A stretch of DNA of 64,000 nt from Ferruginibacter sp. (GTDB lineage Bacteria > Bacteroidota > Bacteroidia > Chitinophagales > Chitinophagaceae): NCBI GenBank assembly GCA_025963635.1, contig JAOQAK010000035.1, forward strand, positions 62,001 through 126,000, in the 5' to 3' direction. The notes under the pieces were generated by a model. The model saw nothing but the letters and a program-made list of their open reading frames with translations. It did not search any database and was not told where the DNA came from. Made by a program: the position numbers and the translations under genes. This document shows, piece after piece, positions 3,050 to 61,207 of the stretch. Position 1 is the stretch's first letter, and each line of letters begins with the position of its first letter.

Positions 3050-3604
3050 TTAATACGTGAAATTACTTATGCAATTCGCTAATGTAGGGTGAACCATATC
3101 TTTATCCGCAACGATTGCTTTATCGCCCGGAATTTGCCAATCGATGGCGAGCTCCGGGTCGTTGTATAGCAACCCGCCTTCACTTTGTTTATTGTAAAAC
3201 CCGTCACATTTATACATTACTTCTGCTGTTTCGCTTAAAACAGAATACCCGTGGGCAAAGCCTTTCGGAACCAGTAACTGCTTTTTATTTTCTGCCGTAA
3301 GTTCTAGTGCATAAGACAGTCCATAAGTGGGGGAGCCTTTTCTTAAATCAACAGCTACATCGAGTATGCTGCCACTCAATACCCTTACCAGTTTTGTTTG
3401 CGCATATGGAGGCATTTGGAAATGTAATCCACGTATTACACCATAGGTTGATCTTGCCTGGTTATCCTGCACAAATATGATATCGATGCCTTCAGCGGCA
3501 AAAACCTTAGCATTGTAACTTTCACAAAAATAACCACGACTGTCTTCAAACACAACGGGCTCGAAAATTAATAAATCGCGGAATTCCGTTTTTATAATGG
3601 GCAT
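3050..3604 (-). CDS. rmlC: dTDP-4-dehydrorhamnose 3,5-epimerase
   Basis: 184 aa cupin protein of the RmlC family. Family landmarks are present: FEPVVFEDSRGYFCESYN near the N-terminus, GVIRGLHFQ (catalytic histidine near residue 62), VDLRKGSPTYG and PKGFAHGYSVL. It converts dTDP-4-keto-6-deoxyglucose to the L-rhamno form, which RmlD then reduces. Directly upstream of rmlD with a 9-bp gap; the 71-bp gap to the wbpP-like gene holds no obvious terminator. Confidence 0.95.
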   Translation of the reverse strand: MPIIKTEFRDLLIFEPVVFEDSRGYFCESYNAKVFAAEGIDIIFVQDNQARSTYGVIRGLHFQMPPYAQTKLVRVLSGSILDVAVDLRKGSPTYGLSYALELTAENKKQLLVPKGFAHGYSVLSETAEVMYKCDGFYNKQSEGGLLYNDPELAIDWQIPGDKAIVADKDMVHPTLANCISNFTY

Positions 3605-3675
3605 GTTGGTGGTTGAGAATGGTTAATATTAATGTTTAAAGAAAACTGGGTATTGACAAAAGACAGTATAAATGA

Positions 3676-4665
3676 TTACTCATCCTTTGAAAACTGGTCT
3701 CTGAAAAACTCAATGGTTTCCTTTAATCCTTCTTCAAACTTTTTTTCCGGCTGGTAATCTAATAAATCTTTGGCCAGCGAAATGTCTGCCAGTGAATTGC
3801 GGATATCACCCGGTCTCGGTTCCCGGTAAGTAGCTTCGAAATCACTTCCTAAATATTCCTTACAGGCCTGGTACAAATAGTTAACGGAGTAACTTTCTCC
3901 TACAGCCACATTGTAAACCTTGTTGATGGCTGCCGGGTTTTCGGTCAGCATTCCTTTAATATTTATTTGTATGGCGTTCTCTACAAAGGTGAAATCCCTG
4001 GTTTGTTCCCCATCACCGTTTATATACACGGGTGTCTGTTTCATGATGCCTTTTACAAACAAGGGAATCACTGCCGCATAGGCTCCGTCCGGATCCTGGC
4101 GGGGACCAAATATATTAAAATAACGAAAACCCATTAGTTTTATGCCGTAAACATCTGCAAATACCTGTGCATACAATTCATTCGTCTTTTTTGTTGCAGC
4201 ATAAGGTGAGAGGCAATTGCCTACCCTATTTTCTGATTTGGGCAGGGTGGGTTCATCTCCATACACCGACGATGAAGACGCATAAACGAATTGGAGGATG
4301 TTGTTGTCTATGGAAGCTTTGAGCATATTAACAAAGCCGCCTGCATTTACTTCATTGAAATACACTGGTTCCTTGATAGAACGTGGAACGGAACCCAGTG
4401 CCGCCTGGTGACTTACATAATGAATATCCTTGCAGGCCGCCTGGCAGGTGGCTTCACTCCTGATATCGCCCTCCAGAAATTCAAAGGCAGGATATTGCTG
4501 CAGGATGGCGAGGTTTTTTTTAAAGCCGTTCACCATATTATCCAGCACCCTTACTTTGGCAGCGCCATTCTTTAGCAGGTACTCGGCAATATGGCCACCG
4601 ATAAATCCACCGCCGCCGGTCACTAAAAAATTATTTTGAGAGATGTCTTTTGTATGAAAAATCAT
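3676..4665 (-). CDS. wbpP: UDP-N-acetylglucosamine C4-epimerase, WbpP/TviC type
   Basis: 329 aa extended SDR. The N-terminal VTGGGGFIGGHIAEYLL binds NAD; ASSSSVYGDEPTLPK (near 127) and the catalytic SPYAATKK (YxxxK, near 150) follow, then FRYFNIFGPRQDPDGAYAAVIP and NGDGEQTRDFTFVENAI. These stretches match what I know of WbpP and Vi-antigen TviC, which interconvert UDP-GlcNAc/GalNAc or their uronic acids, better than GalE. The next gene upstream is the matching TviB/WbpO-like dehydrogenase, which supports a UDP-GalNAcA-producing pair. The 139-bp gap between the two is AT-rich without a clear hairpin. Exact substrate preference is inferred. Confidence 0.88.
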   Translation of the reverse strand: MIFHTKDISQNNFLVTGGGGFIGGHIAEYLLKNGAAKVRVLDNMVNGFKKNLAILQQYPAFEFLEGDIRSEATCQAACKDIHYVSHQAALGSVPRSIKEPVYFNEVNAGGFVNMLKASIDNNILQFVYASSSSVYGDEPTLPKSENRVGNCLSPYAATKKTNELYAQVFADVYGIKLMGFRYFNIFGPRQDPDGAYAAVIPLFVKGIMKQTPVYINGDGEQTRDFTFVENAIQINIKGMLTENPAAINKVYNVAVGESYSVNYLYQACKEYLGSDFEATYREPRPGDIRNSLADISLAKDLLDYQPEKKFEEGLKETIEFFRDQFSKDE

Positions 4666-21418: not shown

Positions 21419-21534
21419 TCGTGAATGGTGAATCGTGAATCGTGAATGGTCAATGGTGAATGGTGAATCGCTAATCATTATTCATCTCCTCTTAATCACG
21501 CCCATTGACCATTGACCATTGCCCATTCACGATA
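21419..21534. repeat. Heptad-repeat hairpin, GTGAATG/CATTCAC type, copy 1
   Basis: A left arm of degenerate GTGAATG heptads (GTGAATGGTGAATCGTGAATCGTGAATGGTC...) faces a right arm of the complement (CCCATTGACCATTGACCATTGCCCATTCACGAT). The same right-arm layout recurs at 51619-51663 with a different number of heptads. The element reaches into pntAA: the TGA stop of that gene (minus strand TCGTGAATG) belongs to the repeat. Confidence 0.8.
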
Positions 21535-51552: not shown

Positions 51553-51588
51553 GGTTGAAGGCTGAAGGTTCAAGGTTGAAGGTTCAAG
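51553..51588. repeat. GGTTGAA/GGTTCAA heptad repeats
   Basis: Four to five degenerate 7-bp units, GGTTGAAGGCTGAAGGTTCAAGGTTGAAGGTTCAA, immediately after the rarA stop. A different heptad sequence follows 30 bp later. Confidence 0.75.
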
Positions 51589-51618
51589 CACGTCTCTCTT
51601 ATTAATCGCTGAATTTTG

Positions 51619-51663
51619 CCCATTGATCATTCACCATTCACCATTCACCATTCACCATTCACG
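51619..51663. repeat. CATTCAC heptad repeats, copy 2 of the 21.4-kb type
   Basis: CCCATTGATCATT followed by four CACCATT units and ending CATTCACGAT. The same beginning (CCCATTGA) and end (CATTCACGAT) bracket the right arm at 21501-21534, with a different number of units between. It lies ~15 bp before the esterase lipoprotein gene. Confidence 0.8.
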
Positions 51664-55560: not shown

Positions 55561-58470
55561 TTACTTTAACTCGGCTTTTAAATATTGCCCTGTAAAGCTT
55601 CCCTTTATTTTTACCAGTTGCTCCGGTACTCCTTCAAACAATATCTGTCCACCACCATCGCCGCCTTCGGGACCTACATCAATGATATGATCAGCCACTT
55701 TTATCACATCCATATTGTGTTCTATCACCAATACCGTATTTCCTCTTTCAACCAGTTTATTCAACACTTCGAGCAAATGTTGAATGTCCTGAAAATGCAA
55801 TCCCGTTGTGGGTTCATCTAAAATATAAAATGTTTTTCCAGTATCTTTTTTACCCAATTCGGTAGATAATTTAACACGTTGCGCCTCTCCGCCGCTGAGC
55901 GTTACTGCACTTTGTCCAAGGGTGATATATCCCAAGCCCACTTCTTTCAGCACTTTTATTTTGCGGTAAATAAAGGGCACCGCCTGGAAAAACTCCACGG
56001 CTTCATCCACCGTCATATCCAACACATCACTGATGGATTTGCCTTTATAGCGGATCTCCAGGGTTTCCCGATTGTATCTTTTTCCATTGCATTTTTCGCA
56101 ATGCACATATACATCCGGCAAAAAGTTCATCTCAATTACCCGCATGCCACCGCCTTCGCAAACATTGCAGCGGCCACTTTTTACATTAAAAGAAAAACGT
56201 CCGGCATTGTACCCCCGGATCTTTGCTTCCGGCACGGCCGCAAACAAAGTGCGGATATCGGTAAAAAAACCACAGTACGTTGCAGGGTTGCTTCGTGGTG
56301 TGCGTCCTATGGGTGACTGGTCGATCTCTATTACTTTGTCGATGTGCTCTAATCCTTTGATCGATTTGTATTCCAGCGGATTGGTTTTTGAATCATAACA
56401 ATGTTTACTCAGCAAAGGATAGAGCGTTTCGTTGATCAGGGTAGATTTTCCGCTGCCACTCACGCCGGTAATCAATACCAATTTGCCCAATGGAATTTTT
56501 ACGCTGAGGTCTTTTAGATTGTTACCCTTTGCCCCTTTCAATTCCAGGAAATTACCATTGCCTTTTCTTCTTTCTTTTGGTACCGCAATTGATTTTTTTC
56601 CGTTCAAATAAAGCGCTGTGTCCGAACCGGAAGCCAGCACTTCTGCGGGTGTGCCCATCGCTACAATTTCACCGCCGTGCTTGCCGGCTTTCGGCCCGAT
56701 ATCTACCAGGTAATCGGCTGCTAGCATAATATCCTTATCATGTTCCACCACCAAAACGCTGTTACCAATATTTCTAAGATTTTGAAGTGCGCCAATCAGC
56801 CGCTGGTTATCCCGTTGGTGCAGTCCAATACTAGGCTCATCCAAAATATAAGTGATGCCCTGCAATTGTGAGCCGATTTGCGTAGCCAGCCTGATCCGTT
56901 GCGATTCGCCGCCACTAAGGCTTTTAGAAGAACGATGAAGAGTAAGGTAAGTTAAACCCACATCCAGCAAAAACTGCAGCCGCTCCCTGATTTCTTTCAA
57001 CAGGTCCTTGGCAATGGTATTCTGTTTGGTGTTGAGCCTTTTTTCAACAGTCTTAAACCAGTCGGCCAGTTTATCGAGGTTAATCGAACTTAGTTCCGAA
57101 ATATTTTTATCATCCACCTTAAACCAAAGGCTTTCTTTTCTTAAACGGCTTCCGTTGCAGGTTGGACAGGTTTTCAGCTCCATAAACTTCTCTACCCAAT
57201 CTCTCATTCCCTCTGTTGTACCGCTGCCGGTAAACCATCGCTTCAACATCGGGATAATCCCTTCAAAACCTCCGTCAGCGCCGGCCGCTTCCAGTAACGA
57301 GTTACTCGACGCATCTGCTTCAAAACCTGATTCATTGAGTTCAAAATCGTCGTCTTCATCATTTCCGGTTCCTTCTGCTTTGCCAAACAATAAAATATTG
57401 AGCGCTTCTTGTGAGAGACTCCCAATAGGTTTATCAAGACTGATCTTGTTCTTTTTCGCCACTGCTTCCACATTTTTGTACATATACGCTTCCCGCTCTT
57501 CACCAAGAGGAGCAATACCGCCCGCTTTGATGGACAACTTTTTATCAGGCAACACAGAATCCATGCTGATGGTGTATACATTGCCGAGGCCCTTGCAGGT
57601 GGGGCAGGCGCCATAAGGACTGTTAAAGGAAAAAGCATTTGGAGAGGGTTCTTCGTAGCTGATCCCCGTATCAATACACATCAATTGTTTACTGTATTGC
57701 ACCACCTTATTATCATCGTTGATCAATAAAAACAGCAGGTCTTTGCCCACCTGCAGTGCTTTCTGAACACTTTGGCTCAGCCTCACTTTCATATCATCGG
57801 TAACGGCCAGCCTGTCGACCACCACTTCTATATCATGAATTTTGTAGCGATCCACCTGCATTTTTGCCACCAGGTCTTTTACTTCGCCATCGATTCTTAC
57901 TTTCAAATAACCCTTCTTGCGGATATCTTCAAAGAGCTCGCGGTAATGCCCCTTCCGGCCACGAACCAAGGGTGCGAGCAAACTGATTTTTTTGTTTTTA
58001 AATTTTGAAAAGATATTGGTTACAATTTCTTCCTCGCTAAACTTCACCATTTTTTTGCCCGTATTGTAGCTGTAGGCATCTCCTATCCTGGCATACAGCA
58101 ACCGCAGGAAATCATATATCTCCGTGATTGTGCCAACGGTGCTCCGCGGATTTTTGTTGGTGGTTTTTTGCTCAATGGAAATTACCGGTGAAAGCCCGGT
58201 GATCTTATCTACATCGGGCCGCTCCATATCGCCCATAAACTGCCGGGCGTAGGCGCTGAAACTTTCCATATACCTCCGCTGGCCCTCGTTGTAAATGGTA
58301 TCAAACGCCAGCGAAGATTTTCCACTACCGCTTACGCCTGTAAATACCACCAGTTGATTTTTGGGAATTTTGATATCGATGTCCTTGAGATTGTGCTCCC
58401 TTGCCCCGAAAACTTCTATAAACTCTTGCTGAATTGCTTCCACCACGGGCGATCCTTTTTCTTTTACCAT
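55561..58470 (-). CDS. uvrA: Excinuclease ABC subunit A
   Basis: 969 aa. Two ABC modules: Walker A VFTGVSGSGKSSLAFDTIYNEGQRRYMESFSAYARQF (~40) and LITGVSGSGKSTLINETLYPLL (~650); signature motifs SLSGGESQRIRLATQIGSQL and TLSGGEAQRVKLSTELGKK; zinc modules CPTCKGLG and CNVCEGGGMRVIEMNFLPDVYVHCEKCNGKRYNRETLE. An acidic insertion (GNDEDDDFELNESGFEADASSN, ~365-395) interrupts the first half, seen in related Bacteroidota as far as I recall. It recognises damaged DNA in nucleotide excision repair. -7-like TACCTTTG lies upstream on the minus strand. Confidence 0.97.
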   Translation of the reverse strand: MVKEKGSPVVEAIQQEFIEVFGAREHNLKDIDIKIPKNQLVVFTGVSGSGKSSLAFDTIYNEGQRRYMESFSAYARQFMGDMERPDVDKITGLSPVISIEQKTTNKNPRSTVGTITEIYDFLRLLYARIGDAYSYNTGKKMVKFSEEEIVTNIFSKFKNKKISLLAPLVRGRKGHYRELFEDIRKKGYLKVRIDGEVKDLVAKMQVDRYKIHDIEVVVDRLAVTDDMKVRLSQSVQKALQVGKDLLFLLINDDNKVVQYSKQLMCIDTGISYEEPSPNAFSFNSPYGACPTCKGLGNVYTISMDSVLPDKKLSIKAGGIAPLGEEREAYMYKNVEAVAKKNKISLDKPIGSLSQEALNILLFGKAEGTGNDEDDDFELNESGFEADASSNSLLEAAGADGGFEGIIPMLKRWFTGSGTTEGMRDWVEKFMELKTCPTCNGSRLRKESLWFKVDDKNISELSSINLDKLADWFKTVEKRLNTKQNTIAKDLLKEIRERLQFLLDVGLTYLTLHRSSKSLSGGESQRIRLATQIGSQLQGITYILDEPSIGLHQRDNQRLIGALQNLRNIGNSVLVVEHDKDIMLAADYLVDIGPKAGKHGGEIVAMGTPAEVLASGSDTALYLNGKKSIAVPKERRKGNGNFLELKGAKGNNLKDLSVKIPLGKLVLITGVSGSGKSTLINETLYPLLSKHCYDSKTNPLEYKSIKGLEHIDKVIEIDQSPIGRTPRSNPATYCGFFTDIRTLFAAVPEAKIRGYNAGRFSFNVKSGRCNVCEGGGMRVIEMNFLPDVYVHCEKCNGKRYNRETLEIRYKGKSISDVLDMTVDEAVEFFQAVPFIYRKIKVLKEVGLGYITLGQSAVTLSGGEAQRVKLSTELGKKDTGKTFYILDEPTTGLHFQDIQHLLEVLNKLVERGNTVLVIEHNMDVIKVADHIIDVGPEGGDGGGQILFEGVPEQLVKIKGSFTGQYLKAELK

Positions 58471-58670
58471 GTATTATTTTACTTACTTCAAAGGTACAAA
58501 ACAAAATCAGGGCGATTTAGTTGATGAGATCTTTGTTTGTTATTTGAAGCCCTCAATGAAGGGGTATGTTATTTATTTTCTATAGAATTAAGTGATCGTT
58601 CACATTTCCGGACGGAAAGATTAGGTGCATTTATTGAAATGATATTTTGTTAGCATATCTTTTATAGCAG

Positions 58671-58782
58671 TTGTAGCATTTTTTTTTGAAAATCTATTTT
58701 TGCTACAGATTTGTAGCGTTTTTTTTGAAAAATTTATTTTTGCTACAAGTTGGTAGCATTTTTTTATTAAAATTTATTTTTG
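58671..58782 (+). promoter_or_regulatory. Three tandem 40-bp units, each a full Bacteroidota promoter match flanked by inverted GTAGC/GCTAC arms
   Basis: Units begin at TTG 58671, 58711 and 58750. Each reads TTG-N21..22-TATTTTTG (boxes at 58695-58702, 58735-58742, 58775-58782; exact 40-bp period) and is framed by TGTAGCA/G upstream and TGCTACA downstream, an inverted repeat spanning the promoter. A degenerate partial unit (TTGTTAGCAT, ~58648) precedes them. All point to the plus strand, towards a 47-codon ORF at 58831. Tandem operators overlapping promoters are the simplest reading. Confidence 0.65.
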
Positions 58783-58830
58783 CTACAATATTTGTTTTGA
58801 GATCGTTATATAAGATTAGATTGATGATGG

Positions 58831-58974
58831 ATGTTGTATACAATTGGTATTTTGGGGAAGCCAATTTTCGTCTCCTGGGGGCAGACCGTATCATTCAAAA
58901 CCATCGCTGATAAGGTGAGTATGGAACAATCCGCCAAATCGTTGCGGAAAAAAATTGGGATGGTAAGTTTATAA
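58831..58974 (+). CDS. Short ORF downstream of the tandem promoter array
   Basis: 47 aa, below the track threshold: MLYTIGILGKPIFVSWGQTVSFKTIADKVSMEQSAKSLRKKIGMVSL. The second half (FKTIADKVSMEQSAKSLRKKIGM) looks protein-like and helical with a helix-turn-helix flavour. The track's overlapping ORF 58686..58910 reads through the array and is a shadow. I do not recognise a family; it could be a genuine small protein or the surviving end of a larger lost gene. It runs directly into a copy of the dispersed element. Confidence 0.4.
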   Translation: MLYTIGILGKPIFVSWGQTVSFKTIADKVSMEQSAKSLRKKIGMVSL

Positions 58975-59053: not shown

Positions 59054-61207
59054 CTAAGCTTCACTCATCCTTCTCAAATAATTCATTACAGCAGAAATTT
59101 CACCGTAAGAATACTCATCCCCCAGCTTTTGTTTTACCGGAGAAATGGCCAGGCTATTTTTATTTTCTTCGATGGCTTTTGTGATCGCCGCCTGTTTATC
59201 AGAGCTCACGATTTCGTTGATGGCGATTTCGCCGGTAAAAACAAAATGACCAAGATGTTCTTCAATCGTACTTCTTTTAAGTTCACGGTGAGCGGCAATT
59301 TCGTCGATATCCCTGCCTTGCTGAAACAACCGCAGGCTGAGCAATTTTGTTTCGGTAGATTTATTGCTCACAGTCGCCATCCGTTGCCGTTTTGGAGCTT
59401 TTGCACTCATGTTGGGGCTAAGATTATTTGCCCGGCAATAATCGATAATGGGATCAAGAAAAGATGATCCATATTTTACCAGTTTAAGGTTTCCGAACCC
59501 TGAAATATTGGAAAGATCAGACATAGTTACCGGCAAATAAGTGGCCATTTCTACCAATGTAGCATCTGAAAAAACCTGGAAGGCAGCAACATTTTCTTCC
59601 TTCGCCAATTGATATCGAACTGCTTTTAAGGTATTGAACAAATCTTTATATACGCTGCCCGCAGTGGTAGAATGCACAGCAGTTTCTTTCCTTGCAGTAA
59701 CGGATTTCACCAGGCTAACTTTCAATTCACCTTTCAGGATTAGCAAGCTTTTTTCGTTCAACTGCAACACCGGAAACTCTCCTTCACTTTGCTGCAAATA
59801 TTCAAATCGTAGCATTTCCCTTAGATATTGCTTCCACTGGTCCTTGCTGATATCTTTGCCGATGCCAAATGTTTTTATGGATTGATGTTCGGTTCGGGTA
59901 GTACTGCTTCCGCGCAAAAAATCGATCACGTAATTGATGCCGAACCGGCCGTTCAGGCGACTTACCGCACTCAGCAATTTTTGTGCTTCAACGGTAGCGT
60001 CCGCCCTTTCTTCATCGCTCAGGCATACATCGCAACTGCCACAAAAAGCAGGCGCCGCCTCATCAAAATAATTTAATAAATATTGCCGCCTGCATTGCCG
60101 GGTAGAACAGAGCGTTGCCATTTGGTCAAGCTTCTTAAGCATCACCTTCGATTGAGCCGCATTGCCTTCAATGGTGGCAAATTTTTTCAGCTTAAACACA
60201 TCTGCGGCGCTGTAAAACAATATGGCTTCGCTGGGCAATCCGTCTCTGCCCGCCCTGCCGGTTTCCTGGTAATATCCCTCAATATTTTTGGGAAGATCTA
60301 CGTGCACTACGAATCGCACGTTGCTTTTATTGATACCCATTCCGAAAGCAATCGTAGCTACAATGATCTTTATTTCATCCCGTAAAAATCGCTCCTGGTT
60401 ATCCTCCTTAACATTTTTATCAAGTCCCGCGTGGTAGGCTGTGGCTGCATATCCCTTATCGCAAAGATCTTCTGCGAGGCTTTCAGTTGAATTTCGGCTA
60501 AGGCAATAAATGATGCCGCAGTCATCCTTATGCAATTTCAAATACTCCAGCAACTGCTGTAAATAATTTTTCTTTTGCCGGATAAAATAACTGATGTTGG
60601 GGCGATTAAATGAATTTTCAAAAACCCGGTAATTGGATATTTCCAACTTCTGAATGATATCAGTTTTGGTAAGTTTATCGGCAGTAGCCGTTAAGGCAAT
60701 TACCGGTACGCCGGGGAAGCGCTTTTTTAATTGACCGAGCACCAGGTATTCCGGTCTAAAATCGTGGCCCCAATGGCTGATACAATGTGCTTCATCAATG
60801 GCAAAAAGGGATACATTGATATTTTCGAGATAGAGTAATAAACTGTTTTGCCCCAACAGCCTTTCCGGCGCCACATACAACAATTTGAGCTGGTTATTTT
60901 TCAGTCGTTGAATGATGGCCGCCTGTTCAAAACTAGATTGGGAAGAATTTAAAAAAGCCGCGGCAATTCCATTCAACTTCAGTGCATCTACCTGGTCCTT
61001 CATTAAAGCAATCAGCGGCGAAACTACAATGGTAACTCCTTCAAACATCAACGCCGGCACCTGGTAACACAAAGATTTACCGCCCCCGGTGGGCATTAAA
61101 ACAATGCTGTCATTTTTTGCTAAAACATTTTCGATAATTTCCTGCTGGTTGTGCCGGAATTCATCGTAGCCGAAATACTGTTGCAGGGTTTGCCGGATAT
61201 CCATCAT
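59054..61207 (-). CDS. recQ: ATP-dependent DNA helicase RecQ
   Basis: 717 aa, complete. Helicase motifs: FRHNQQEIIENVL (motif 0), LMPTGGGKSLCYQVPAL (I), LFAIDEAHCISHWGHDFRPEY (II plus aromatic-rich loop), ALTATA (III), ATIAFGMGINKSNVRFVVHVDLPKNIEGYYQETGRAGRDG (V-VI); zinc cysteines in CSTRQCRRQYLLNYFDE...CGSCDVCL; winged helix; and an HRDC domain (~520-600, VRYQLAKEENVAAFQVFSDATLVEMATYLP). A C-terminal helical tail follows (~620-717, with DIDEIAAHRELKRSTIEEHLGHFV) as in other long RecQs. It unwinds recombination and fork-repair intermediates. Confidence 0.96.
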   Translation of the reverse strand: MMDIRQTLQQYFGYDEFRHNQQEIIENVLAKNDSIVLMPTGGGKSLCYQVPALMFEGVTIVVSPLIALMKDQVDALKLNGIAAAFLNSSQSSFEQAAIIQRLKNNQLKLLYVAPERLLGQNSLLLYLENINVSLFAIDEAHCISHWGHDFRPEYLVLGQLKKRFPGVPVIALTATADKLTKTDIIQKLEISNYRVFENSFNRPNISYFIRQKKNYLQQLLEYLKLHKDDCGIIYCLSRNSTESLAEDLCDKGYAATAYHAGLDKNVKEDNQERFLRDEIKIIVATIAFGMGINKSNVRFVVHVDLPKNIEGYYQETGRAGRDGLPSEAILFYSAADVFKLKKFATIEGNAAQSKVMLKKLDQMATLCSTRQCRRQYLLNYFDEAAPAFCGSCDVCLSDEERADATVEAQKLLSAVSRLNGRFGINYVIDFLRGSSTTRTEHQSIKTFGIGKDISKDQWKQYLREMLRFEYLQQSEGEFPVLQLNEKSLLILKGELKVSLVKSVTARKETAVHSTTAGSVYKDLFNTLKAVRYQLAKEENVAAFQVFSDATLVEMATYLPVTMSDLSNISGFGNLKLVKYGSSFLDPIIDYCRANNLSPNMSAKAPKRQRMATVSNKSTETKLLSLRLFQQGRDIDEIAAHRELKRSTIEEHLGHFVFTGEIAINEIVSSDKQAAITKAIEENKNSLAISPVKQKLGDEYSYGEISAVMNYLRRMSEA

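Follow-up and report, generated by a model that had tools for sequence, protein, structure and literature searches.

A candidate orphan operator array for an XRE-type protein between uvrA and recQ of a Ferruginibacter species

What is the role of three regularly spaced repeat units in the intergenic DNA between uvrA and recQ of Ferruginibacter sp. GCA_025963635.1, an organism with a genome of 6.64 Mb in 106 contigs? The stretch of DNA analysed here, called the window, comprises 64,000 nt of contig JAOQAK010000035.1, which is designated C25 in the locus labels. An earlier note on this DNA had read the units as promoters that are bracketed by inverted arms for a regulator and point at a small ORF.

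The array, its copies and the promoter reading

The repeat is the top tandem repeat of the 64-kb window in Tandem Repeats Finder (score 178). It consists of three 40-nt copies starting at 58671, 58711 and 58751 (spacing 40 + 40), and the triple array with an exact 40-nt period claimed before is real. The units are 36-bp inverted repeats whose 7-base arms enclose a 22-bp A/T-rich interior, and 4-bp joints lie between them. The inverted TGTAGCA/TGCTACA arms reported around every unit are present with two one-base departures from TGTAGCA, namely in the left arms of units 2 (TGTAGCG) and 3 (GGTAGCA). The array and its neighbourhood comprise the following features:

55561..58470, minus strand: uvrA (Pfam), start codon about 201 bp from the array, transcribed away from it
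58608..58875, no strand: array and flanks common to dispersed copies (76% alignment with C12; a similar stretch aligns with C26)
58671..58790, no strand: putative operator array (orphan copy), three inverted-repeat units, 40-bp period, arm lattice > 29 < 11 > 29 < 11 > 29 <
58672..58707, no strand: unit 1, arms TGTAGCA (58672-58678) and TGCTACA (58701-58707)
58712..58747, no strand: unit 2, arms TGTAGCG (58712-58718) and TGCTACA (58741-58747)
58752..58787, no strand: unit 3, arms GGTAGCA (58752-58758) and TGCTACA (58781-58787)
58831..58974, plus strand: 47-aa ORF (ATG) between uvrA and recQ, judged not to be a gene (no homologue, no Pfam match)
59054..61207, minus strand: recQ (Pfam), 3' end about 268 bp from the array

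A CRISPR array was ruled out, as the 36-bp units are joined by 4 bp and there are no unique spacers of about repeat length. Elsewhere in the window, two intergenic places, 21421-21527 (GTGAATG and CCATTGA) and 51553-51662 (GGTTGAA and CCATTCA), each contain two clusters of 7-bp tandem repeats in an opposed arrangement loosely reminiscent of inverted arms.

A search of the host genome with the unit pattern, allowing up to 3 mismatches, located the unit at five loci (C12, C25, i.e. the window, C26, C46 and C95), and the reversed-pattern control gave no match. A subsequent DNA search added a sixth, diverged array at C67. The window array is thus more than a chance arrangement, since five further loci of the genome contain related arrays with this lattice, and the reversed control contains none. 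All six arrays contain three units; five of them stand alone in intergenic DNA (orphan arrays), and the sixth, at C67, lies just upstream of an XRE-type HTH gene. The lattice of the window is also found at C12, C46 and C95, one unit of the C26 array lacks 5 bp, and in the C67 array the outer arms are degenerate but the lattice is unchanged. Between C12, C25 and C26, the similarity extends into the flanks and covers about 250 bp. Among the five orphan copies, the arms are 94% and the interiors 74% identical, and identity amounts to 66% in the flanks of the three longest copies. Gap openings per 100 columns follow the same order, with 0 in the arms, 0.56 in the interiors and 3.7 in the flanks. 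Orphan arms and spacing look maintained rather than decayed, and the suggestion that the exact spacing is under selection is supported in that the copies preserve arms and spacing and differ in their interiors.

The promoter consensus of Bacteroidota consists of a TTTG element at -33 and a TAnnTTTG element at -7. The TTG-N21/22-TATTTTTG strings from which promoters had been deduced are literally contained in all three units of the window, with TTG at 58671, 58711 and 58750, TATTTTTG at 58695-58702, 58735-58742 and 58775-58782, and gaps of 21, 21 and 22 nt. However, among the 15 units at the five orphan loci, only 9 retain the TAnnTTTG box, which arises at the junction of the T-run and the arm, so that promoter boxes at constant spacing are not conserved across the copies, and the box is absent from the arrays of other genomes. 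The 47-aa ORF exists in the mechanical sense, but it has no relative among 149 other genomes of the family, no match in the sister array copies of the host genome and no Pfam match; part of it falls within the flanking DNA common to C12, C25 and C26. The proposed search of relatives yielded related arrays in other genomes and no homologue of the ORF. No Rfam family matched above its gathering score (best match 21.3 bits versus 37, a eukaryotic scaRNA, E 0.71), and a known RNA family was ruled out on these grounds. Loss of the box in the copies and non-conservation of the ORF led to the rejection of a promoter array with a small ORF, and it is very improbable that three Bacteroidota promoters drive a small protein or RNA from 58831. 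A switch by slippage in the T-runs is likewise not suggested, the orphan lattice of the host genome being constant except in one unit.

The HTH protein at C67, its relatives and a frequent partner gene

The C67 array lies directly upstream of a gene (C67:31760-32287) whose 176-aa product contains an HTH_3 domain, and this adjacency identifies a candidate cognate regulator of the window array. The protein combines an N-terminal Cro/CI-type HTH with a C-terminal long-helix domain. In the structure model (mean pLDDT 90.9), the HTH helices are located within residues 3-57, followed by a 54-residue helix at 65-118. The HTH_3 scores of the trans-factor proteins (29.9, 35.2 and 33.5 bits) exceed the Pfam cut-off of 23, and by this tested domain the trans-factor is a protein of the XRE family (HTH_3, Cro/CI-type). 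Weak fold matches of the HTH include C.BclI, C.AhdI and SinR. For the C-terminal domain, fold searches returned HTH and generic helix matches only and no solved or viral relative.

Profile searches matched 14 of 249 family, 8 of 59 genus and 11 of 396 phylum genomes. Some of these matches belong to a short XRE subfamily with a different C-terminus and weak or absent arrays (genomes G315, G239, G288, G145, G049 and G036, plus G101 C55:36624), which was excluded from the code test described below. Six long-form HTH loci are present in the host genome, including a frameshifted one. A covariance model built from the arrays retrieved a second HTH-linked array of the host genome at C59 (arms TGTAACA) and one of another species at C80 of genome G013 (arms TGTGGCA/TGTGACA), each directly upstream of a homologous gene. 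Most long-form homologues have private inverted arms just before their start codon, including TGTAGCA, TGTAACA, TGTGACA, TGTGGCA, TGTGTCA, TGTACCA, TGTTATC, GGTATCA and others, and some are without a clear array, e.g. at C44 and C21 of G052. Two HTH paralogues of the host genome, C68:37996-38481 and C74:28675-29160 (loci L123 and L124), are 84.6% identical over 1.18 kb of DNA and have TGTAAACA arms. The frameshifted paralogue at C82:5252-5730 (L118, L121) still has an array with TGTGTCA/TGTGACA arms upstream.

At eleven or more loci, a conserved gene for a 136-aa protein follows the HTH gene. This arrangement is found at C59 and C74 of the host genome and at G013 C80, in G142, G311, G021 and G009, at two loci of G052, and in two Flavobacterium genomes. 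Examples are:

L074:499-906, minus strand: 136-aa partner gene, downstream of the HTH gene
L070:460-867, minus strand: 136-aa partner gene, downstream of the HTH gene
L126:3089-3499, plus strand: 136-aa partner gene, downstream of the HTH gene

Within the family, the gene was detected in 5 of 249 genomes, all of which also encode the HTH protein. It was not found at C67, and C74 keeps it where no match was found at the paralogous C68. The partner is predicted to be all-helical (pLDDT 91.7); it has no match in Pfam, NCBIfam, PADLOC or PHROGs, and its fold search returned generic coiled coils only, with SMC coiled coils among the weak matches and none below E 0.001. An origin from plasmids or phages was discarded, as tblastn gave no match for the partner in plasmids or phages and none for the C67 protein in plasmids. 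In Flavobacterium NK2020 (CP051546.1; L126, L127, L128), array, HTH gene and 136-aa gene occur together at three sites with about 97% identity, which indicates that the whole module can duplicate within a genome; at L127, a transposase-like gene (3129-4028) is situated between the HTH and 136-aa genes.

This organization resembles type II toxin-antitoxin systems with an HTH antitoxin, which are likewise small two-gene modules with palindromic upstream operators, many paralogues and a patchy distribution. The arrays could accordingly be relics of a selfish system with the HTH protein as antitoxin, the 136-aa partner as toxin and the orphans as left-over operators, and the private specificities of the paralogues, the frameshifted copy at C82 and the threefold module in Flavobacterium NK2020 would fit such an origin. 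In contrast to toxin-antitoxin systems, however, the partner matches no recognised toxin family in the databases named above and is often absent, as at C67, and the orphan arrays appear maintained. Such a relic is unlikely.

Covariation of arm bases and recognition-helix residues

The variety of private arms allowed a comparison of protein residues with arm bases. In an unbiased scan, mutual information was calculated between each alignment column of 31 non-redundant proteins and arm bases 4-6 (498 tests), the arm being the inverted 7-mer of the form KGTNNNN that occurred most often, with a purine at base 4 if the orientation was ambiguous. The highest value was obtained for residue 31 and base 4 (z 8.5; Leu-A, Met-G), followed by residue 26 and base 6 (z 7.5; Arg-C) and residue 30 and base 5 (z 6.5; Ser-G, Ala-A, Asn-C), and the fourth-best pair reached a z of 3.3. 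All three residues are part of the recognition helix. With the mapping fixed beforehand and the arm rule slightly widened to NGTNNNN, 32 of 50 bases were predicted correctly at 18 held-out loci from the phylum search, compared to a shuffle mean of 20.15 (p = 0.0002), a p-value that is indicative because the shuffles ignore shared ancestry and several of the held-out loci come from one genome. Arms breaking the code occur at the G509 loci, L226 and L239.

In every case of both sets, Arg (or an equivalent) at position 26 together with Ser30 and Leu31 goes along with AGC at bases 4-6. The only protein of the host genome with Arg26, Ser30 and Leu31 is the one encoded at C67, and the array there has the same arm sequence as that of the window, TGTAGCA, which should be the arm of a helix with these residues. 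The covariation suggests that the HTH protein reads the arms, and a regulator very probably binds those of the window array. The regulator postulated in the earlier note has in this way gained a candidate gene in the same genome, and across the family the arm bases covary with recognition-helix residues. A further, two-unit orphan array on the 29/11 lattice is located at C83:89380-89470 (L075, L195) of the host genome; its arms read TGTGGCA, and no protein of this genome has residues matching them.

While the arm bases vary among relatives in the Bacteroidota, the arm spacing (29, 14/15 and 11 bp) is conserved. Most of the 24 HTH-linked arrays follow one lattice with inward pairs at 28-31 bp, direct repeats at 14/15 bp and outward pairs at 11/12 bp, and inverted 7-mers at a distance of 29 bp were found in 27 of 59 upstream regions versus 0.82 in shuffles. 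Orphan arrays of other genomes repeat the layout of the HTH-linked array: all five orphans of G021 are arranged as > 30 < 28 > 30 <, as in its HTH-linked array, and the HTH-linked layout of G013 (> 29 < 11 > 14 > 15 < 14 <) is fully contained, in either orientation, in four of six orphans and in parts in the other two, with at least six orphan arrays in this genome. Array-form TGTAGCA hairpins were found only in the three sampled genomes of the genus that have a TGTAGCA-linked protein; exact TGTAGCA units number 8 in the host genome, 12 in G021 and 4 in G009, and the other sampled genomes of the genus contain isolated matches only. In G021, the average identity across the central 12 bases of the hairpins is only 32%, yet 12 of 12 hairpins are 37 nt long. 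Arms and spacing kept while interiors and flanks diverge, together with this constant hairpin length, fit selection on arms and spacing.

These observations also bear on the possibility that the arrays are a non-autonomous mobile repeat, i.e. a MITE- or REP-like palindrome that a transposase has distributed and that now serves no function. The copies are dispersed and intergenic, three of them share about 250 bp including flanks, and the arm contains GTAG as in GTAG-tagged REPs (PMC3733652). One end of a REP, a short dispersed intergenic palindrome with a linked gene that has copies beside it, is tagged with an unpaired GTAG or CGTC (PMC3733652). In the arrays, by contrast, GTAG forms part of the paired arm and gives way to other bases in related arrays, an unpaired tetranucleotide tag is lacking, the linked gene encodes an HTH protein instead of a Y1 transposase, and there are about six copies, not many. 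The Y1 transposase (RAYT) is present in the host genome and in most array-free genomes tested and is absent from G013 despite its orphan arrays; REP/RAYT was ruled out by the structure and by this missing transposase. As arms and spacing are moreover conserved above the flanks, and the arms covary with the HTH protein, a functionless mobile repeat is improbable, although the arrays may have spread by an unknown mobile copying route.

Proposed function and significance

Taken together, the window array is likely an orphan multi-site operator for the XRE-type protein encoded at C67, and the best reading of the sequence comparisons is that it is kept by selection on arms and spacing. In the proposed mechanism, two HTH heads joined by a long coiled coil would bind an inverted 29-bp arm pair; such a dimer, its heads at opposite ends of the long helix, could span this pair (about 99 angstrom). 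The 11-bp gap would place heads of neighbouring dimers about one helical turn apart, and three units are accordingly proposed to hold a cooperative assembly. At the gene of the C67 protein itself, the array would serve autoregulation. At the five orphan sites, it would make a neighbouring gene responsive to the C67 protein. Here, the most plausible local target, if any, is uvrA: the array is situated about 200 bp upstream of its start, not over the start region.

Alternatively, the orphan arrays might anchor the C67 protein on the chromosome and act as anchoring or bridging sites with a nucleoid-type function instead of as regulon operators. The genes flanking 17 orphan arrays in three genomes have no common type or functional theme. 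This lack of a theme, the fixed multi-site lattice, the long-helix domain of the HTH protein and the coiled-coil partner with its weak SMC matches (none below E 0.001) would agree with anchoring. Only five or six sites per genome and the operator-like position of HTH-linked arrays right at the start codon argue against it, and anchoring in place of regulation is considered fairly unlikely. It is possible, though rather doubtful, that the arrays are part of an undescribed group of fast-diversifying DNA-addressing proteins in Bacteroidota, in which each paralogue has private arms determined for the most part by three helix residues, a conserved lattice, a frequent 136-aa coiled-coil partner, and orphans through which it bridges or silences distant sites beyond local repression.

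As multi-site operators, the arrays can be compared to those of multi-operator XRE repressors, among them phage CI, the controller proteins of restriction-modification systems and SinR, which have the same HTH domain and inverted half-sites just upstream of their own gene. In contrast to these, the lattice of 29, 14/15 and 11 bp is unusual, the C-terminal long-helix domain has no solved relative in the searches, orphan arrays are located elsewhere on the chromosome, and arm specificity differs between paralogues. Dispersed sites for one regulator, as predicted here, are also known from the stoperators of mycobacteriophages, where one repressor has many binding sites across the genome; each of these is a single asymmetric site in a phage genome and stops transcription (PMC9283540). 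The likeness is limited to one regulator with dispersed sites and implies no membership, as the arrays described here are symmetric, multi-site and located in bacterial intergenic DNA. A literature search with most subscription journals outside its scope found no paper on such repeats, regulators or a system of this kind.

In the phylum Bacteroidota, the analysis reveals what appears to be a scarcely described family of regulators whose DNA code can be read, and an odd repeat becomes a testable protein-DNA system. The predicted code assigns A or G to Leu or Met at residue 31, G, A or C to Ser, Ala or Asn at residue 30, and C to Arg at residue 26. A likely trans-factor is thereby assigned to a class of intergenic repeats otherwise filed as promoters, REPs or MITEs. 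Several genomes with many paralogues of differing specificity represent a natural series for the coevolution of repressors and operators, and the paralogues are possible orthogonal regulators for Bacteroidota.
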